Shown: one piece after another, positions 51,385 to 60,901 of the stretch
Numbering within the stretch: the first letter of the stretch is position 1
Layout of the letters: every line of letters begins with the position of its first letter
From: Streptomyces sp. NBC_01451
GTDB taxonomy: Bacteria; Actinomycetota; Actinomycetes; Streptomycetales; Streptomycetaceae
Reading direction: 5' to 3'
Length of the DNA stretch: 64,000 bases
Assembly (NCBI RefSeq): GCF_036227485.1
Contig: NZ_CP109479.1
Location: 6,882,001 to 6,946,000, forward strand
The notes under the pieces: generated by a model
Told to the model about the DNA's origin: nothing
Databases searched by the model: none
Seen by the model: only the letters and a program-made list of their open reading frames with translations
Made by a program: the position numbers and the translations under genes

Positions 51385-51843
51385 ATGGCGATCGAGGTCG
51401 GCGACAAGGCCCCGGACTTCGAGCTCAAGGACAACCACGGCGCCACCGTGCGGCTCTCGGACTTCCGCGGCGCGAAGAACGTGGTGCTCCTCTTCTACCC
51501 CTTCGCCTTCACCGGTGTGTGCACCGGTGAACTCTGCGACCTGCGGGACAACCTGCCGAGGTTCTCCGACCGGGACACCCAGGTGCTCGCCGTCTCCAAC
51601 GACTCCATCCACACCCTGCGCGTCTTCGGCGAGCAGGAGGGCTTCGACTACCCCCTGCTGTCCGACTTCTGGCCGCACGGCAACACTTCGCGCGCGTACG
51701 GAGTCTTCGACGAGGACAAGGGTTGTGCGGTGCGCGGGACCTTCATCATCGACAAGGAGGGCGTCGTGCGGTGGACCGTGGTCAACGGACTGCCGGACGC
51801 GCGTGACCTGAACGAGTACGTGAAGGCCCTCGACACCCTGTGA
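51385..51843 (+). CDS. ahpE: AhpE-type one-cysteine-like peroxiredoxin
   Basis: 152 residues. Reduces hydroperoxides and peroxynitrite in the cytoplasm. Peroxidatic Cys 46 in the PxxxTxxC motif ([14 protein letters not shown]); there is a further Cys at 51 and one in DKGCAVRG, so an intramolecular resolving Cys is possible. The blocks [18 protein letters not shown] and GTFIIDKEG are close to mycobacterial AhpE. A TAGGGT -10-like hexamer lies at 51341-51346. It immediately precedes the Ter genes, which fits an oxidative/metal stress locus. Confidence 0.92.
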
Positions 51844-51965
51844 TTCTTCGGTTCCACCCCTGCGTGGGGCGGGAACCCGTCACTAGGATCGACACGTTGA
51901 TCCGATAACGGCGCACGACGGGGCACACCGCACCCGGAAGCAGACGAGACACAAATGGAGGACTC

Positions 51966-52541
51966 GTGGGAGTCAGCCTCAGCAAGGGCGGCAACGTATC
52001 GCTGACCAAGGAGGCCCCGGGTCTCACCGCGGTCATCGTTGGTCTGGGATGGGACGCGCGTTCCACCACCGGCACCGACTTCGACCTCGACGCCAGCGCG
52101 ATCCTGACGAACGCGGACGGCAAGGTCAGTTCCGACGCCAACTTCGTGTTCTTCAACAACCTCAAGAGCCCGGACGGCTCCGTCGAACACACCGGCGACA
52201 ACATCACCGGTGAGGGCGAGGGCGACGACGAGCAGATCAAGGTCAATCTCGCGGCGGTCCCGGCCGACGTCGACAAGATCGTGTTCCCGGTCTCGATCTA
52301 CGAAGCCGAGAGCCGTCAGCAGTCCTTCGGCCAGGTGCGCAACGCGTTCATCCGCGTCGTGAACCAGGCGGGCGAGGCGGAGCTCGCGCGCTACGACCTC
52401 TCCGAGGACGCCTCGACGGAGACCGCCATGGTCTTCGGCGAGCTGTACCGGCACGGCACGGAGTGGAAGTTCCGCGCCATCGGCCAGGGATACGCGTCCG
52501 GTCTGCGCGGCATCGCGCAGGACTTCGGCGTGAACGTCTGA
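51966..52541 (+). CDS. terD: TerD-family protein, copy 1
   Basis: 191 residues from GTG 51966 with GGAGG upstream. Cytoplasmic beta-sandwich protein of the tellurium/stress response family that binds Ca2+. Both acidic loops are intact: [10 protein letters not shown] and the [12 protein letters not shown] / GEGEGDDE block. Length is the usual 191-192. Tandem with a close paralogue 101 bp downstream; shared runs such as [11 protein letters not shown] and [17 protein letters not shown] indicate gene duplication. Probably acts with the TerC-type protein at the membrane. Confidence 0.95.
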
Positions 52542-52642
52542 GCCGGACTTCCTCCGGTTCCGTCGTCCGGCGTCGCACTCCCGGTGCGGCGCCGGACGCG
52601 CTCGGTACATCTGTTCGCATCACCTCGGGGAGGACCAGCACT

Positions 52643-53218
52643 ATGGGCGTCACGCTTGCCAAGGGGGGCAATGTCTCCCTCTCCAAAGCCGCACCGAACC
52701 TCACCCAGGTGTTGGTCGGGCTCGGCTGGGACGCGCGTTCCACCACCGGCGCGCCCTTCGACCTCGACGCCAGTGCCCTGCTGTGCGGCGGTGGAAGGGT
52801 GCTCGGCGACGAGTGGTTCATCTTCTACAACCAGCTCACGAGCCCCGACGGCTCTGTGGAGCACACCGGCGACAACCTCACCGGTGAGGGCGAGGGCGAC
52901 GACGAGTCGCTGATCGTCGACCTGCCCAGGGTGCCGGCCGCCTGCGACAAGATCATCTTTCCGGTCTCGATCCACGACGCGGACAACCGCGGCCAGACCT
53001 TCGGCCAGGTCGGCAACGCCTTCATCCGGGTCGTCAACCAGGCCGACGGCCAGGAACTGGCGCGTTACGACCTGAGTGAGGACGCTTCGACGGAGACCGC
53101 CATGATCTTCGGTGAGTTGTACCGCTACCAGGGCGAGTGGAAGTTCCGTGCAGTTGGACAGGGGTACGCGTCGGGTCTGAAGGGCATCGCTCTAGACTTC
53201 GGAGTCAACGTTTCGTAA
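52643..53218 (+). CDS. terD: TerD-family protein, copy 2
   Basis: 191 residues, GGGGAGGA before ATG 52643. Same architecture as copy 1, with calcium loops [10 protein letters not shown] and [12 protein letters not shown] / GEGEGDDE. It differs mainly around residues 48-60 ([18 protein letters not shown]), where copy 1 has a different loop, and in the centre. The DNA of both copies keeps long identical stretches, so they diverged by tandem duplication. It precedes the TerC-type gene by 50 bp and probably shares its transcript. Confidence 0.95.
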
Positions 53219-53268
53219 AGCCGAGTACGGCAGCGGGGGAGACCCGTAAACACACGATTGGGTAGCCA

Positions 53269-54417
53269 GTGATTCTGAAAACCTTCGGCTGGTCGTTCGC
53301 GGTCACCGCGCTCGGCCTGGTCGCGGCGGTCTTCTACGGGGGGTGGACCGGCTTCGGCATCGTGGCGATCCTCTCCATCCTCGAGATCTCGCTGTCCTTC
53401 GACAACGCGGTGGTCAACGCCGGAATCCTGAAGAAGATGAGTGCCTTCTGGCAGAAGATCTTCCTCACGGTCGGTGTCCTCATCGCCGTCTTCGGTATGC
53501 GGCTCGTCTTCCCCGTCGTGATTGTGGCCATCAGCGCCAAGATCGGTCCGATCGACGCGGTCGACCTCGCTCTCAACAACAAGGACCAGTACCAGCAGCT
53601 GGTCACCGACGCCCACCCGGCGATCGCCGCCTTCGGTGGCATGTTCCTGTTGATGATCTTCCTCGACTTCATCTTCGAGGACCGGGACATCAAGTGGCTC
53701 GGCTGGCTGGAACGCCCGCTCGCCAAGCTCGGCAAGGTCGACATGCTGTCGGTCTGCATCGCCCTGATCGTGCTCATGATCTCCGCCATGACGTTCGCGA
53801 CCAACGCCCACCAGCACGGTGGCGCCCACGTCGACAAGGCGCAGACGGTGCTCATCTCCGGTATCGCCGGTCTGATCACGTACATGATCGTCGGCGGGCT
53901 CTCCGGCTACTTCGAGGACAAGCTGGAGGAAGAGGAGGAGCGCGAGCACGAGGCCGACGAGGAGGCCGAGCGCACCGGCAAGAAGAGGCCGGCCGTCGTT
54001 CTCGCCGGCCAGGCCGCGTTCTTCATGTTCCTCTACCTCGAAGTGCTGGACGCGTCCTTCTCCTTCGACGGTGTGATCGGCGCCTTCGCCGTCACCAACG
54101 ACATCGTGCTGATGGCCCTGGGCCTCGGTATCGGCGCCATGTACGTCCGGTCGCTCACGGTCTACCTGGTCCGCCAGGGCACCCTCGACGACTACGTCTA
54201 CCTGGAGCACGGCGCGCACTACGCGATCGGCGCCCTCGCCGCCATCCTGCTCGTCACCATCCAGTACGAGATCCACGAGGTCATCACCGGCCTGGTGGGC
54301 GTCGTCCTGATCGCCTGGTCCTTCTGGTCCTCCGTGCGCCGCAACACCAAACTGGCGGCGGCCGAGGGAAAAGCGGCGGGCTCGGACGAGAAGACTGAGG
54401 TCTCGTCCGGGGTGTGA
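53269..54417 (+). CDS. TerC-related integral membrane protein (DUF475)
   Basis: 382 residues from GTG 53269 (weak ribosome site). About nine transmembrane helices. Conserved acidic membrane motifs ILEISLSFDNAVVNA (TM2) and EVLDASFSFDGVIGAF (TM7) are those of the TerC superfamily. They form the predicted metal-ion site. A charged cytoplasmic loop (EDKLEEEEEREHEADEEAERTGKK) separates the halves. Known TerC-family members export Mn2+ or work with TerD. Cotranscribed with the two TerD genes and followed by a strong hairpin. Confidence 0.93.
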   Translation: MILKTFGWSFAVTALGLVAAVFYGGWTGFGIVAILSILEISLSFDNAVVNAGILKKMSAFWQKIFLTVGVLIAVFGMRLVFPVVIVAISAKIGPIDAVDLALNNKDQYQQLVTDAHPAIAAFGGMFLLMIFLDFIFEDRDIKWLGWLERPLAKLGKVDMLSVCIALIVLMISAMTFATNAHQHGGAHVDKAQTVLISGIAGLITYMIVGGLSGYFEDKLEEEEEREHEADEEAERTGKKRPAVVLAGQAAFFMFLYLEVLDASFSFDGVIGAFAVTNDIVLMALGLGIGAMYVRSLTVYLVRQGTLDDYVYLEHGAHYAIGALAAILLVTIQYEIHEVITGLVGVVLIAWSFWSSVRRNTKLAAAEGKAAGSDEKTEVSSGV

Positions 54418-54444
54418 CAACCTCCGGTGTGAGGAACGCTCTGA

Positions 54445-54485
54445 GCGGGGCGGCTACGAGGAATCGTCCTCGTCGGCCGCCCCGC
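54445..54485 (+). terminator. Terminator after TerC-type gene
   Basis: GCGGGGCGGC / GCCGCCCCGC outer arms (10 bp) with inner GAGGA/TCCTC, 27 bp after the stop; it separates the terD-terD-terC unit from the next TerD-like gene. Confidence 0.75.
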
Positions 54486-54549
54486 GGTCTTGCGGGCGGC
54501 CGACTGACGGCATGGACGAATGTGCGGGGGCTGGACGGGTGGGGGCGGG

Positions 54550-55287
54550 ATGAGTTTCTGGGACGACCTGTGGCGCGGCCGTACGACGGACTTCGACGCC
54601 GGCAGCGCGGCGAGCAACTCCATCGAGCTGACCAAGCGGCACCAACGGGTATCGCTCACGAGGCAGGGCGCCGCGACCGGCCACCTGCGCATCAATCTGT
54701 CCTGGCGGATGCGTACGTCGGACATCGGCGGCCCCAAGCGGCAGAGCCTGTGGCGACACCCCTTCCAGGCCCTGCGGCCGGAGGAGGTCAAGGGCCACAC
54801 CCAGAGCATGGTGAACGTCGACCTCGACCTGGGCATCCTGTACGAGCTGACGGACGGCACCAAAGGGGTCGTACAGCCCCTGGGCGGGTTCCTCGGCGAC
54901 ACGAACGTGCCGCCGTACGTCAAGCTCAGCGGGGACGACCGGTTCGGGTCGGCGTCCGGGGAGACGGCGTACGTCAATCTCGACCACCGGGACGAGATCA
55001 AGCGGCTGCTGGTGTTCGTGTACATCTACGACCAGACGCCGGCGTTCGACCGGACCCACGCGATCGTGACGCTCTACCCCAGCAACGGGCCGCGCATCGA
55101 GATCGGCCTCGACGAGCGGCACTCGCAGGCCCGGTCCTGTGCGGTGGTGCTGATCGAGAACGTGAAGAACGAGCTGATCGTCCGGCGGGAAGTGAAGTTC
55201 GTCTACGGGTTCCAGGCGGAGCTCGACCGGTTGTACGGGTGGGGGCTGCAGTGGGGCAGGGGATACAAGACCAAGGCTGAGCGCTGA
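54550..55287 (+). CDS. Divergent TerD-like protein
   Basis: 245 residues, start ATG 54550 (MSFWDDLWRG); a frame from 54520 adds ten unlikely residues. The N-terminal about 70 residues are basic and specific. The rest is a TerD-like beta sandwich: VNVDLDLGILYELTDG, the loop KLSGDDRFGSASGETAYV with acidic ligands, and VIVTLYPSNG-like block AIVTLYPSNGPRIEIGLDE. It ends GWGLQWGRGYKTKAER, a C-terminus seen in long TerD-like proteins. Probably a metal-binding member of the Ter system with a different partner from the 191-residue copies. Confidence 0.88.
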   Translation: MSFWDDLWRGRTTDFDAGSAASNSIELTKRHQRVSLTRQGAATGHLRINLSWRMRTSDIGGPKRQSLWRHPFQALRPEEVKGHTQSMVNVDLDLGILYELTDGTKGVVQPLGGFLGDTNVPPYVKLSGDDRFGSASGETAYVNLDHRDEIKRLLVFVYIYDQTPAFDRTHAIVTLYPSNGPRIEIGLDERHSQARSCAVVLIENVKNELIVRREVKFVYGFQAELDRLYGWGLQWGRGYKTKAER

Positions 55288-55357
55288 CGCTTGGTCTTGG
55301 CGGGGCGCCCTGGAGCTCGGGGGGTTCTGTGGAGTGGCGGCTGCGGGCTGTGTGTGG

Positions 55358-55384
55358 TTGATCGCGCAGTTCCCCGCGCCCCTC
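55358..55384 (-). repeat. Interspersed repeat copy c (inverted)
   Basis: On the minus strand AGGGGCGCGGGGAACTGCGC followed by GATCAAC, identical to copies a and b over 20 bases. Its outer end forms GCGCCCC-TCA-GGGGCGC (55376-55392), so here it doubles as a terminator-like hairpin between two convergent genes. Confidence 0.88.
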
Positions 55385-55397
55385 AGGGGCGCCTGTC

Positions 55398-56177
55398 CTA
55401 CCGGCTGATGAACTGTGGGCCCTGGGGCGGCAGGCGGAAGTCCGGGGACGGGTTCGGGGATGCTCCCACCGGTTGGGGGTACCCGTACGCCGGCTGGTTC
55501 GCGTTCGGGCTCGTGGGCTGCGGGTAGCCGTAGGTCGGCTGCGGAGGGAGAGTGGGCGGATGCTGGACCGTGGTGACCGCCGAGGTGTCCGTGGGCGGGG
55601 CGTTGGTGGTGTCCGGGAACGGCTCCTCGGCCGGCGGGTCCTCCACCGAGATGCCGAAGTCCGTCGCCAGGCCCTCCAGGCCGTTCGAATAGCCCTCACC
55701 CAGGGCGCGGAACTTCCAGCCGTCGCCGCGCCGGTACAGCTCGCCGCAGATCAGCGCCGTTTCCTCGCCCGTCTCCGGTTTGACGTCGAAGTACGCCAGC
55801 GGTTCGCCGTCCGCGACGGCACCGTCGTACAGCAGGATGCGCAGAGACCGTACGCGGTCGAAGGTCACGCCGTCCGCCGAGGCGATCAGCATAATCTGGC
55901 CGACCGCTGACTCGACACCGGTCAGATCCGTCTGGATCGTGTCGGTCAGGCCCTCGGCCACCCGTTTCTTGCCGAGGCGCCAGACCTTGCCCGAGGGGTG
56001 GCGGGGTTGGTTGTAGAAGACGAAGTCCTCGTCGGAGCGCACACGACCGTCGGGGCCGAGGAGCAGCGCCGAGGCGTCGACATCCGGAACCCCCTGCCCG
56101 GGCGTCCAGCGCAGGACGGCGCGCACCGTCGTCGCTTCGAGCGGGACGTTCGACCCCTTCAGCATCGCGTGCGTCAT
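55398..56177 (-). CDS. TerD-family protein with degenerate metal loops and Pro-rich tail
   Basis: 259 residues. Residues 1-180 are a TerD domain ([60 protein letters not shown]). The acidic loop found in the other copies ([19 protein letters not shown]) is replaced by [20 protein letters not shown], so the calcium site looks partly lost. The last 75 residues are disordered and Pro-rich with two YGYPQP units, a possible interaction tail. Convergent with the TerD-like gene and divergent from the CitE-like gene. Confidence 0.9.
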
Positions 56178-56372
56178 GCGGTCATCCTGCCTTCTCGGTC
56201 CTGGTCACGACAACGCGGGGGCATCGGTTCTGCGTGTCCGCGTTACCTGAACTTCATTCTCAGTGGGAACCCCCGACATGGATCCCTACGTACTATTACC
56301 GGCCACCCATCAACACTCGACCGACACCCGATCACCACTCGACCGGCCGTCCAGCCGCCACGGGGGAATTTC

Positions 56373-57545
56373 ATGCGTCATTTCGGGCACATCGCGCCTG
56401 AGGTACGGCAGCGCCTGTTCCACCAGGAGCCGTGCGAGTTCACCGCCGACTCCCCGGCCCGGCTGCTCGCCACGGCCCTGGGGGCCACCCTGTACAGCCC
56501 GGCCACCCGCCCGCGCCTCGCCGACGCCATCGTCAAGCAGGTCGCCCGCGGTGTCGTCTCGATGGTGCTGTGCCTGGAGGACTCCATCGACGACTCGGAG
56601 GTCGCCGACGCCGAGGAGAACCTGGTGCGGGAGTTCGGCGTGCTCGACGAGCGCCCCGACGCCACCACCGGGCTGCCGCTGCTGTTCATCCGGGTCCGTA
56701 CGCCGGAACAGATCCCCGACCTCGTACGCCGCCTCGGGCCGACCGCCAGGCTGCTCTCCGGGTTCGTGATGCCGAAGTTCACCGAGGAACGCGGGATGCC
56801 GTTCCTGGAGGCACTCGCCGACGCCGAGGCCGCCAGCGGCCGACGGCTGTTCGGCATGCCCGTGCTCGAATCGCCCGAGCTGATGTACCGGGAGACGCGG
56901 GTGGAGACCCTGGAGGGCATCTCCCGCGCCGTCGACAAGTACCGCGACCGCGTCCTCGCCCTGCGCCTCGGCGTCACCGACTTCTGCTCCTCGTACGGGC
57001 TGCGCAGAGCCCCGGATATGACCGCGTACGACGTCCACGTCGTCGCCTCCGTCATCGCCGACGTCGTCAACATGATGGGACGGGCCGACGGCACCGGGTT
57101 CACCGTCACCGGGCCCGTCTGGGAGTACTTCCGGGTCCAGGAGCGCATGTTCAAGCCACAGCTGCGCCGCAGCCCCTTCCTGGACGGCCAGGCCGAGGAA
57201 CTGCGTGAGACGCTGATCGAGCACGCCATGGACGGGCTGCTCCGCGAGATCAGCCTCGACCAGGCCAACGGGCTGCTCGGCAAGACCTGCATCCACCCCT
57301 CGCACGTACTGCCCGTGCACACACTGTCCGTGGTCAGTCACGAGGAGTTCAGTGACGCCCAGGACATCCTGCGGCCCGAGCGCTGCGGCGGAGGCGTCCT
57401 GCGGTCGGCGTACACGAACAAGATGAACGAGGTGAAGCCGCACCGCGCCTGGGCCGAGCGGACCCTGCTGCGCGCCGAGGTCTTCGGCGTCGCCAACGAG
57501 GACATCGGCTTCGTGGAGCTGCTCACCGCCGGTATCCCCGACTGA
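56373..57545 (+). CDS. HpcH/HpaI aldolase / CitE-like lyase of the Ter biosynthetic module
   Basis: 390 residues. TIM-barrel lyase of the citrate-lyase-beta superfamily: VVSMVLCLEDSIDDSEVADAE with the Glu/Asp pair, LPLLFIRVRTPEQI, GFVMPKFT and MPVLESPELMYRET carrying the second metal-binding acidic residue; RLGVTDFCSSYGLRR follows. Longer than stand-alone CitE (about 290). This variant occurs with Ter genes and PRTase/HAD genes and is thought to supply a carbon unit for a nucleoside-like product. ATG 56373 lacks a strong ribosome site (CGGGGGAA upstream). The 56178-56372 region is the divergent promoter zone. Confidence 0.87.
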   Translation: MRHFGHIAPEVRQRLFHQEPCEFTADSPARLLATALGATLYSPATRPRLADAIVKQVARGVVSMVLCLEDSIDDSEVADAEENLVREFGVLDERPDATTGLPLLFIRVRTPEQIPDLVRRLGPTARLLSGFVMPKFTEERGMPFLEALADAEAASGRRLFGMPVLESPELMYRETRVETLEGISRAVDKYRDRVLALRLGVTDFCSSYGLRRAPDMTAYDVHVVASVIADVVNMMGRADGTGFTVTGPVWEYFRVQERMFKPQLRRSPFLDGQAEELRETLIEHAMDGLLREISLDQANGLLGKTCIHPSHVLPVHTLSVVSHEEFSDAQDILRPERCGGGVLRSAYTNKMNEVKPHRAWAERTLLRAEVFGVANEDIGFVELLTAGIPD

Positions 57546-57617
57546 CATCCGCTCTCGATCGCCTGGGCGGCCGACACCACCGACCTGGCACCCCCCGACG
57601 AACACACATAGGGATTC

Positions 57618-60098
57618 ATGAACAACGCTGTGCACAACGGGGTCTGGTCCGGCACCTGGGTCGCCGAGCGGCTCGGGGTCGAGCTGGTCGGCGGCGACGA
57701 CCTGCGCGAGCTGCTCGGCCTCGCCCTGCGCCGCAACCCCAAGCGGGCGCACCTGCTGGTGTCGAACGTACTCGGCAAGCATGTCCCGCAGTCACCCGCC
57801 GTCGTCTACGGCCACGGCTTCGCCCTCGGCGAGCGCGTCCGCGAGCTGCTGGGCGCCCACGAGTCGCGGCGCGCGGTCGTCGTCGGGTACGCCGAGACGG
57901 CCACCGGGCTCGGCCACTGCGTCGCCGACGGCGTGGGCCTCGCGCCCTACCTCCACTCCACCCGGCGCCCGGTCGACGGCGTCGACCGCGCGGGCGGCTT
58001 CGAGGAGGCACACTCGCACGCCACCTCCCACCTCCTCCTCCCCGAGAACCCCGCGCTGCTGGCCGGCCCCGGCCCGCTGGTCCTCGTCGACGACGAGTTC
58101 TCCACCGGCAACACCGTCCTCAACACCATCCGCGCGCTGCACGAGCGCTACCCGCGCGAGCGGTACGTCATAGTCGCCCTCGTCGACATGCGCTCCGCCG
58201 CCGACACCGGCCGCCTGGACGAGTTCGCCGACGAGATCGGCGCCCGCGTCGACCTGGTCACCACGGCGGACGGAACGGTTCGCCTGCCGGAGGGCGTGCT
58301 GGAGAAGGGGCAGGAACTCGTCGAGCGTTACGAGAACCCCCCGGGGGCGCGGGGAACCGCGCGAACGGCCCCCACCGGACCGCAGCCGTCACACAACCGG
58401 CACACCCGAGTCGAACTGCGCTGGCCCCGAGGCATCCCGGACGGCGCCCGCCACGGCTTCACGCCCGGGCACCGAATACGCATGGAGGCCGCGCTGCCCG
58501 CGATGGCGGCGAGGCTCGCCGAGAGCCTCCCCGCAGACGCCCGCCGCGTCCTCGTCCTCGGCTTCGAGGAGCTGATGTACGCCCCGCTGCGCCTCGCCCA
58601 GGAGCTGGAGCGGGTGCTGGAGGGCGCCGAGGTCCGCTACTCGACGACCACCAGGTCACCCGTCCTCGCCGTGGACGACCCGGGGTACGCGATCCGCAGC
58701 CGCCTCGTCTTCCCGGCCCACGACGACCCGGCCGACGGGCCCGGCGACCGCTACGCCTACAACGTGGCCGGCGCCGGCTTCGACGCCGTCGTCGCGGTCG
58801 TGGACTCCACCGCCGACACACCCGAACTGCACGCCCCCGACGGCCTGTTGGCCACGCTCGCCGCGCACACGCCGAACGTCGTGCTCGCCGTCGTCCCCTC
58901 GTACGTACCCGCACGTCCGCACGTACCCGAAAGGCCCCGCATGCTGCCCGAGCCCCTCCGCGGTCCCGCGTTCTCCTCGTATCCACCGGACGAGGTCGGC
59001 TGGCTGCTGCGGGATCTCTCGGACGTGAGCCTGGAGGCGCCCACCGAGGAGCGGGAGGAGGCGATCCAGGCGGGCGGCGCCCACTACGCCGAGTCGCTGC
59101 CGGTCGAGTACCAGCCCAGCGACCAGTACCAGGAGCTGTTCCGCGCCGCCCTCGACACCTCCGCCGCCCGTATCGCCCAAGCCGTGGGCGCGGTCACCGA
59201 GTTGGTGCTCGCCGAGCGCTCACCGCGTCCGGTGCTCGTCTCGCTGGCGCGGGCCGGAACACCCGTCGGGGTCCTCATGCGGCGCTGGGCCCAGCACCGC
59301 CACGGGCTCGAACTGCCCCACTACGCCGTGTCGATCGTCCGGGGCCGGGGCATCGACGCCAACGCGCTGCGCTGGCTGGCAGCCCACCACGACCCCGCCG
59401 ACGTCGTGTTCGTCGACGGCTGGACCGGCAAGGGCGCCATCACCCGCGAACTCGCCGACGCCATCGAGGAGTTCGAGGCTTCCGACGGCATCACCGGCTT
59501 CGACCCGGAGATCGCGGTCCTGGCCGACCCGGGCTCCTGCGTCCGGACGTACGGCACCCGCGAGGACTTCCTCATCCCCTCCGCCTGCCTCAACTCCACG
59601 GTGTCCGGCCTGATTTCGCGGACCGTCCTGCGCGCTGACCTGGTCGGCCCGAACGACTTCCACGGCGCCAAGTTCTACCGCGAACTCGCCGGCGCCGACG
59701 TCTCGGTGGACTTCCTCGACGCCGTCGCCGCCCGCTTCCCCGAGGTCGCGGACGCCGTCGGCACCTCGGTCAAGGAGCTGCTGGCCGCGGACCGGGAACC
59801 GACCTGGGAGGGCTGGGCGGCCGTCGAGCGGATCAGCGAGGAGTACGAGATCCACGACGTGAACCTCGTCAAGCCCGGCGTCGGCGAGACCACCCGGGTG
59901 CTGCTGCGCCGCGTCCCCTGGAAGATCCTGGCCCGGGCCGGAGCGGGCGCCGACCTCGACCACGTACGCCTGCTCGCCGAGCAGCGGGGCGTACCCGTCG
60001 AGGAGGTGGCCGAACTCCCGTACACCTGCGTCGGGTTGATCCACCCCAAGTACACGCGGGGCGCGACCGGCGCCGACGGCAGGGCGGTGTCGGCATGA
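57618..60098 (+). CDS. Fused phosphoribosyltransferase-TRSP-phosphoribosyltransferase of the Ter module
   Basis: 826 residues, three parts. (1) About 1-235, PRTase with the PRPP loop VLVDDEFSTGNTV (158-166). (2) About 260-450, TRSP-like domain: LGFEELMYAPLRLAQELE and STTTRSPVLAVDD. (3) About 451-826, second PRTase-type domain starting SSYPPDEVGWLLRDL with a VFVDGWTGKGAI loop. These correspond, as I recall the families, to PRTase_2, TRSP and PRTase_1, enzymes predicted to build a nucleoside-like metabolite in Ter systems. Between parts 1 and 2, residues about 242-251 are encoded by an in-frame copy of the interspersed GC repeat (NPPGARGTARTAP). The gene overlaps the HAD gene by ATGA. Confidence 0.88.
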   Translation: MNNAVHNGVWSGTWVAERLGVELVGGDDLRELLGLALRRNPKRAHLLVSNVLGKHVPQSPAVVYGHGFALGERVRELLGAHESRRAVVVGYAETATGLGHCVADGVGLAPYLHSTRRPVDGVDRAGGFEEAHSHATSHLLLPENPALLAGPGPLVLVDDEFSTGNTVLNTIRALHERYPRERYVIVALVDMRSAADTGRLDEFADEIGARVDLVTTADGTVRLPEGVLEKGQELVERYENPPGARGTARTAPTGPQPSHNRHTRVELRWPRGIPDGARHGFTPGHRIRMEAALPAMAARLAESLPADARRVLVLGFEELMYAPLRLAQELERVLEGAEVRYSTTTRSPVLAVDDPGYAIRSRLVFPAHDDPADGPGDRYAYNVAGAGFDAVVAVVDSTADTPELHAPDGLLATLAAHTPNVVLAVVPSYVPARPHVPERPRMLPEPLRGPAFSSYPPDEVGWLLRDLSDVSLEAPTEEREEAIQAGGAHYAESLPVEYQPSDQYQELFRAALDTSAARIAQAVGAVTELVLAERSPRPVLVSLARAGTPVGVLMRRWAQHRHGLELPHYAVSIVRGRGIDANALRWLAAHHDPADVVFVDGWTGKGAITRELADAIEEFEASDGITGFDPEIAVLADPGSCVRTYGTREDFLIPSACLNSTVSGLISRTVLRADLVGPNDFHGAKFYRELAGADVSVDFLDAVAARFPEVADAVGTSVKELLAADREPTWEGWAAVERISEEYEIHDVNLVKPGVGETTRVLLRRVPWKILARAGAGADLDHVRLLAEQRGVPVEEVAELPYTCVGLIHPKYTRGATGADGRAVSA
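58343..58370 (+). repeat. Interspersed repeat copy d, inside a coding sequence
   Basis: GGGGGCGCGGGGAACCGCGC followed by GAACGGCC; it differs from the other copies at T-to-C (AACCGCGCG), shared with copy e. The reading frame passes through it, encoding GARGTAR. Confidence 0.88.
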
Positions 60099-60901
60099 GT
60101 CCCGTCCTGGTCGCCAGCGATCTCGACCGTACGCTCATCTACTCCGCCGCGGCCCTCGCGCTGACCATGCCGGACGCCCGCGCGCCCCGGCTGCTCTGCG
60201 TCGAGGTGCACGAGGCCCGGCCGCTGTCGTACATGACGGAGGTGGCCGCCGGACTGCTCACCGAACTCGGCGACACCGCCGTCTTCGTGCCGACGACCAC
60301 CCGGACCCGTAAGCAGTACCTGCGCATCAACCTGCCGGGCCCGGCACCCAAGTACGCGATCTGCGCGAACGGCGGTCACCTCCTCGTCGACGGTGTCGCC
60401 GACCAGGACTGGCACGACCGGGTGCAGACACGGCTCGCGGACGAGTGCGCGCCCCTGGACGAGGTCCGGGACCATCTCGCGGCCACCACCGACCCGCTCT
60501 GGGTGCGCAAGCACCGGATCGCCGAGGACTTCTTCGCCTACCTCGTCGTCGAGCGAGAACTGCTCCCCGAGGAGTGGGTGAAGGAACTGGCGGTCTGGGC
60601 GGAGGTCCGCGGCTGGACCATCTCCCTCCAGGGCCGCAAGATCTACGCCGTGCCGAAGCCGCTCACCAAGAGCGCGGCCATGCGCGAGGTCGCGCGCCGC
60701 ACCGGCGCGACGCTCACTCTCGCCGCCGGTGACTCCCTCCTCGACGCCGATCTGCTCCTCGCCGCCGACCGGGGCTGGCGCCCGGGCCACGGCGAGCTGG
60801 CGGAGGCGGGGTGGGTGGCCGACACGGTCACGGCGCTTCCCGAACGGGGGGTCGCGGCGGGGGAGCGGATCCTGCGGGAGTTCCTGCGGGAGACGCGCTA
60901 G
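60095..60901 (+). CDS. HAD-superfamily phosphatase of the Ter module
   Basis: 268 residues. HAD motifs: I ASDLDRTLIYS (Asp 9, Asp 11), II Thr in VPTTTRTRKQY, III Lys in PKPLTKSAAM, IV GDSLLDADLLL. The cap is of the Cof/trehalose-phosphatase type (C2), which acts on sugar phosphates or nucleotides. ATG 60095 overlaps the PRTase fusion stop by 4 bp, so both are made together; it likely removes a phosphate from the product. Its 3' end overlaps the convergent DedA gene by 74 bp. Confidence 0.9.
   Translation: MSPVLVASDLDRTLIYSAAALALTMPDARAPRLLCVEVHEARPLSYMTEVAAGLLTELGDTAVFVPTTTRTRKQYLRINLPGPAPKYAICANGGHLLVDGVADQDWHDRVQTRLADECAPLDEVRDHLAATTDPLWVRKHRIAEDFFAYLVVERELLPEEWVKELAVWAEVRGWTISLQGRKIYAVPKPLTKSAAMREVARRTGATLTLAAGDSLLDADLLLAADRGWRPGHGELAEAGWVADTVTALPERGVAAGERILREFLRETR

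Follow-up and report, generated by a model that had tools for sequence, protein, structure and literature searches.

We analysed a stretch of 64,000 nucleotides (hereafter the window) from the 10.27-Mb single-contig genome of Streptomyces sp. NBC_01451 (contig NZ_CP109479.1, positions 6,882,001 to 6,946,000), in which positions 51,385 to 60,901 hold an island of Ter genes and putative biosynthetic enzymes. With a probability of roughly 0.6, this island is a version of the Ter-linked biosynthetic module that belongs to actinobacteria and lacks the ligase. Sequence and structure models place a C-C bond lyase, a phosphoribosyltransferase (PRTase) domain similar to APRT (PRTase_2), a StiP domain similar to PyrR/HGPRT and a HAD phosphatase in a tight gene string beside genes for TerD, TerA-like and DUF475/TerC proteins. 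The string probably encodes a small-molecule pathway with the lyase, the two PRTase-fold parts and the phosphatase as its core, of which the steps and the nucleoside-like product are predictions. According to papers that cite it, an earlier comparative analysis describes a Ter-dependent module in which TerD/TerC genes accompany PRTases and HAD enzymes and for which a nucleoside-like product was predicted (Anantharaman, Iyer, Aravind 2012, PMID 23044854).

To define the composition of the module, we searched species genomes with an alignment of five StiP sequences and retained the 80 best among 591 confirmed stretches. All 80 are from Proteobacteria, because a Pseudomonas protein is the first row of the alignment. 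Neighbouring genes were searched by tblastn (E<=1e-4) over up to 10 kb per side. The PRTase-TRSP and lyase genes were found at every one of these loci, the HAD gene at 79 (the exception is L107) and TerD at 78, the two others (L039 and L044) being contigs of 8.6 and 4.6 kb. The initial annotation had assigned the enzymes of the island to the module tied to Ter genes by comparative genomics, and this assignment is borne out by the Ter genes that adjoin their relatives. ATP-grasp genes were detected at 62 of the 80 loci; of the 18 loci devoid of them, 10 are flanked in full on either side and contig ends truncate the other 8. As ATP-grasp is common but short of universal, we did not treat it as defining the module. 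Two observations concern the proteobacterial loci themselves. Many of them harbour a second HAD gene, and the module of a Pseudomonas plasmid includes both a trypsin-like protein and a second HAD protein (L028:6881-8020 and L028:12000-12728).

At actinobacterial loci outside the genus (L124, L125 and L026, the last on a Tsukamurella plasmid), the four enzymes occur together with TerD and DUF475, and the stretches examined contain no peroxiredoxin or ATP-grasp gene. These loci bear on the AhpE-like peroxiredoxin, which had been counted as a member of the island. Its gene immediately precedes TerD in the window and also in three other loci of the genus (L127, L128 and L131), as would be expected if it were a working part and the island a peroxide defence unit. 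However, it is present in none of the 85 related loci (80 proteobacterial ones and five plasmid stretches) and is absent from L124, L125 and L026, which makes that explanation distinctly improbable. The peroxiredoxin is probably a syntenic neighbour and not part of the module.

We then considered the ligase. As previously noted, no ATP-grasp gene is visible in the island; the genome has five matches to the ATPgrasp_Ter family (PF15632) at E<=0.001, all outside the window. One of them, a strong match (118.7 bits) at 1.368 Mb, is located 5.6 Mb from the island. For comparison, scores range from 76 to 138 bits for four module-linked ATP-grasp proteins and are 108 and 112 bits for two distant copies from the genus. 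The initial annotation had left the choice between a minimal module and a distant ligase. That the pathway requires ATP-grasp and obtains it from this distant gene is favoured by the strong family membership of the protein (116-119 bits), but the gene does not track StiP. Among 199 genomes of the genus, StiP was found in 195 (the other four are draft assemblies with 550 to 1420 contigs) and relatives of the distant ATP-grasp in 79, namely 77 of the 195 genomes with StiP and 2 of the 4 without it (five of these 79 matches are weak, one being a 51-residue fragment and four having 36-41% identity). Moreover, the distant gene adjoins genes for a phosphopantetheinyl transferase and a metallophosphoesterase rather than Ter genes, as it also does in S. 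fungicidicus. We thus consider its supply of a required ligase to be improbable, and the minimal version fits better. Consistently, none of eight 17-kb ATP-grasp neighbourhoods contained a gene of the StiP module. An ATP-grasp tree gathers the eight Streptomyces rows in a single branch (99/96) distinct from the Ter-linked rows, but its five outgroup rows were poorly chosen (several are probably in the wrong frame, and their end branches are 6 to 10 long), so that the tree does not decide whether these proteins and the Ter ATP-grasps are the same gene. The best PF15632 match in 21 genomes that have StiP and lack this ATP-grasp was 51 bits, against the 76 to 138 bits of the module-linked proteins. 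As the presence of ATP-grasp does not follow that of the module across the genus, the ligase looks optional: unneeded for the core product and possibly used to modify the product in some strains. In a set of 246 genomes of the phylum, StiP was found in 12 (8 of the genus) and ATP-grasp in 7 (6 of the genus). Xenorhabdus is a second lineage without a linked ligase: all five of its loci (L100, L102, L103, L104 and L105) carry the module and Ter genes, with no ATP-grasp gene found alongside.

All nine open frames of the initial annotation are present, and Pfam searches of the window proteins, with E<=0.01 as the listing threshold, refined their identities (Table 1). Both the second TerD and the tailed TerD were correctly named, but the former starts at 52643 and the latter is on the minus strand. 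The protein described as a divergent TerD has no Pfam match and is TerA-like instead, with 34% identity over 219 residues to the TerA of a Klebsiella plasmid (5e-36). The supposed CitE-like lyase belongs to the C-C_Bond_Lyase family, and HpcH_HpaI, the domain expected of it, was not listed at the threshold. For the predicted PRTase-TRSP-PRTase fusion, PRTase_2, TRSP and StiP were all found, and a PELOTA domain had been overlooked. Apart from the family of the lyase, the expected domains are thus in place, and the homologues neighbour Ter genes rather than unrelated pathways. The HAD protein also lacks a Pfam match; its identity is supported by similarity to a trehalose phosphatase among PDB sequences (1e-11) and to the HAD protein of a Pseudomonas plasmid Ter module (1e-17). 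The lyase, whose start is probably at 56373, keeps the residues that are invariant among 19 relatives and has a short sequence match to acyl-CoA lyase beta chains among solved structures (9nzb and 8khl). A gap of 72 bases separates it from the fused gene, which the HAD start overlaps by 4 bases, so that the three genes are arranged as in an operon. In the whole genome, TerD-domain matches amount to 15, several of them in open frames of 400 to 700 residues far from the island.

Table 1. Genes, protein domains and promoter-like site of the island (window positions).
Feature	Position	Strand	Evidence or remark
AhpE-like peroxiredoxin	51385..51843	+	PF00578 AhpC-TSA 6e-41
TerD (first)	51966..52541	+	PF02342 7e-88
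TerD (second)	52643..53218	+	PF02342 4e-81
DUF475/TerC membrane protein	53269..54417	+	PF04332 9e-139, PF03741 3e-19
TerA-like protein	54520..55287	+	start may be 54550; similarity to Klebsiella plasmid TerA
TerD with proline-rich tail	55398..56177	-	PF02342 1e-43
Promoter-like site GGGAAC-N18-CGTAC of the enzyme operon	56265..56293	+	
C-C bond lyase (C-C_Bond_Lyase)	56373..57545	+	PF15617 1e-121
Fused PRTase_2-TRSP-StiP-PELOTA protein, 826 residues	57618..60098	+	Pfam and structure models
PRTase_2 domain, residues 32-219	57711..58274	+	PF15609 2e-68; APRT fold
TRSP domain, residues 275-412	58440..58853	+	PF12500 2e-39
StiP domain, residues 453-703	58974..59726	+	PF11202 5e-106; PyrR/HGPRT-like fold
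PELOTA_1 domain, residues 730-809	59805..60044	+	PF15608 5e-35; L7Ae-like
HAD phosphatase	60095..60901	+	similarity to trehalose phosphatase and to a plasmid-module HAD

The fused protein gave no match in a sequence search of solved structures, and its domains were characterized from structure models. PRTases usually carry two acidic residues in the loop that binds phosphoribosyl pyrophosphate (PRPP). The PRTase_2 model has the type I PRTase (APRT) fold, and the two-acid PRPP loop is present. The StiP domain, which we take to be the former PRTase_1 family, gave a model that resembles PyrR/HGPRT and has the type I PRTase fold. Its conserved block VFVDGWTGKGA occupies the position of the PRPP loop but holds only one acidic residue, making the use of PRPP by StiP unsure. 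By its modelled fold StiP is probably a relative of PRTases, and its catalytic activity is putative. No fold was assigned to TRSP, the matches listed spanning residues 25-231 of the N-terminal model. PRTase_2-TRSP and StiP-PELOTA are not always joined in a single chain, since some genomes of the genus (L126, L127 and L128) have a short open frame at StiP (382, 406 and 481 residues for G280, G301 and G377).

In both Pfam and NCBI records StiP goes by the name of a stress-response cysteine protease. No cysteine is invariant among the 43 StiP sequences, as the richest column has it in 30 of them and the window protein has Ala there, and the modelled fold is PRTase-like. A proteolytic function is thus very unlikely, and the 'cysteine protease StiP' name is without support in these sequences and models. 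No protease fold was among the fold matches listed for the StiP half, a listing that by itself excludes nothing. From the models, the 'cysteine protease' of the databases looks like a ribose-phosphate transferase-like enzyme joined to an RNA-binding-type domain. Many of the listed members of this family, which has at least 7,890 relatives, carry the name, and it calls for caution.

Several observations weigh against a ligase-free pathway built on two PRTase-fold parts. Where PyrR and HGPRT have the two-acid PRPP loop, StiP has the invariant VFVDGWTGKGAI, with one acid. All Foldseek matches of the StiP half were weaker than E 0.001, and they include, among the PRTases, some pyridoxal phosphate enzymes of low probability. 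Regarding the ligase, some PF15632 match above the Pfam cut-off exists in 16 of the 21 genomes with StiP and without the distant ATP-grasp, and in 12 of 14 control genomes. Many of these matches lie in frames of about 1100 residues, a length that would suit carbamoyl-phosphate synthase. Finally, the ATP-grasp search of the genus genomes used a cut-off of 1e-10 with 9 candidates scored per genome, such that a very different ligase could escape it.

The PELOTA domain raises the possibility of an RNA substrate. Its model matches include L7Ae-like folds, and a search of solved chains with the family profile ranked L7Ae first, albeit weakly (E 0.0085). All 43 sequences keep K320, E325, T327 and R328 (numbering of the 394-residue StiP piece), which line up with the L7Ae motif. 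Thus, the PELOTA part might hold a structured RNA for base exchange, addition or removal by the PRTase-fold parts, and the 'metabolite' would then be an RNA nucleoside, either modified or released. The Asn of the L7Ae kink-turn motif has a functional role. Of the Asn-Glu-x-x-Lys motif, PELOTA keeps the Glu and has Arg in place of Lys, but in common sequences the Asn is replaced by Ala or Gly. The domain shares the fold and part of the motif with the L7Ae family and differs from it by the lost Asn and by its fusion to a PRTase-like enzyme. The lyase and HAD partners are also better suited to a small molecule, and no RNA gene was found in the cluster, where none was sought. On balance, we regard action on RNA as unlikely. 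A more specific version would be an RNA-directed phosphoribosyl enzyme serving a genus-wide stress response of Streptomyces, in which the L7Ae-like domain holds a structured RNA that serves as substrate for the APRT-like domain and for the PyrR-like domain with its unusual invariant loop, the Ter 'metabolite' being a modified or exchanged RNA base or a released nucleoside; we hold this version to be unlikely as well.

For the small-molecule pathway that we favour, the following sequence of events can be proposed. Under stress, a sigma factor of the extracytoplasmic function (ECF) kind would turn on the enzyme operon. The lyase would make or trim a small acceptor, which PRTase_2 would couple to phosphoribose from PRPP, and StiP might perform a second transfer or exchange. 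The HAD enzyme would then strip a phosphate, and the TerD and TerA proteins could sense the product at the DUF475/TerC membrane protein. In many Proteobacteria, ATP-grasp would attach an amide-linked group, with the core product independent of it.

The proposed control of the operon stems from a promoter-like site upstream of the lyase gene. Over the 260 bases before this gene in 26 genomes (the window, 20 other genomes and five loci), GG[GA]AAC-N16-20-CGTA[CT] was found in 23, always with a spacer of 18, and GGAAC-N18-CGT in the remaining three. The boxes are preserved across these genomes, although much of the spacer varies. Five of the genomes had been viewed before the pattern was drawn up; of the other 21, 18 have it. 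It occurs in none of the 26 reverse strands and in 0.08% of mononucleotide shuffles per sequence, controls that overstate the surprise since the 26 genomes are related. In the window, GGGAAC-N17-19-CGTAC is found once, at the operon site, with 0.12 expected and 11 of 100 shuffles having one, and the looser GGAAC-N16-19-CGTM has 10 matches for 7.2 expected. In five genomes, GGGAAC-N18-CGTAC has 49 matches, including the operon site in each genome, versus 17 for the reversed control; genome-wide, the site is thus not strikingly rare. The longer form ending in CGTACTA has 1, 1, 1, 2 and 1 matches versus 1, 1, 0, 0 and 0 for the reversed control, such that its rarity alone proves nothing. No regulon could be established from the 49 matches, the genes beside the others being unannotated. 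The first TerD of the island is presumably the counterpart of sco2368. In the available portion of a list of sigma-E targets (PMC6767563), sco2368 is included, and sco2362, sco2363 and sco2364 do not appear in the main text. Partly by analogy with that list, the site resembles ECF sigma-factor promoters. Between the divergently oriented, tailed TerD gene and the lyase gene (56178-56372), additional conserved blocks are found around GTTACC...TTCA and GACAACGCGGGG, which are possible regulator sites.

Compared with the available description of the 2012 module, the island has the same association of TerD/TerC with PRTases and HAD enzymes. It differs by the lack of a linked ATP-grasp, by the presence of PRTase_2-TRSP and StiP-PELOTA in one chain, by DUF475 and by its own promoter-like site. 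The Klebsiella plasmid ter locus (L027), whose 'putative biosynthetic cluster' is mentioned in the consulted part of PMC8115787, similarly lines up genes for PRTase, HAD-like, StiP and lyase proteins next to Ter genes. However, its PRTase and StiP are unfused, and it has additional ATP-grasp, TerB, VWA/TerY, phosphatase and kinase genes. The link of these enzymes to Ter genes and the 'nucleoside-like metabolite' are already in print (the 2012 paper and, as far as their available text goes, PMC7824862, PMC8115787 and PMC12054061). In the portions at hand, the product is still called predicted in PMC8115787 and PMC7824862, while PMC12054061, with reference to that 2012 analysis, says that functions of this kind 'were shown'. 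Our literature searches returned nothing joining TerD, ATP-grasp and Streptomyces, or PELOTA, phosphoribosyltransferase and TerD, or StiP, tellurite and cysteine protease. The additions made here are counts of the core and optional enzymes, the finding that almost all sampled genomes of the genus have the module, a promoter-like site, an examination of the name 'protease' and a comparison with L7Ae at the level of residues, none of which was seen in the available text of PMC7824862, PMC8115787 and PMC12054061, the three sources to which this comparison extends, the 2012 text itself being outside it.

The counts separate the core enzymes from the optional ones. With four core enzymes largely in one chain, no linked ligase and one likely promoter, the island is a simple place to seek the product, and the module is present in almost all sampled genomes of a genus whose members are readily cultured and amenable to gene deletion. 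For comparison, the Tsukamurella plasmid shares two TerD genes, DUF475, the lyase, PRTase, StiP and HAD genes and the lack of ATP-grasp, but its enzymes are unfused. A 399-residue protein (L026:8371-9570) with no Pfam match takes the position of the TerA-like protein there, after DUF475 and before the lyase, and the two are not similar.

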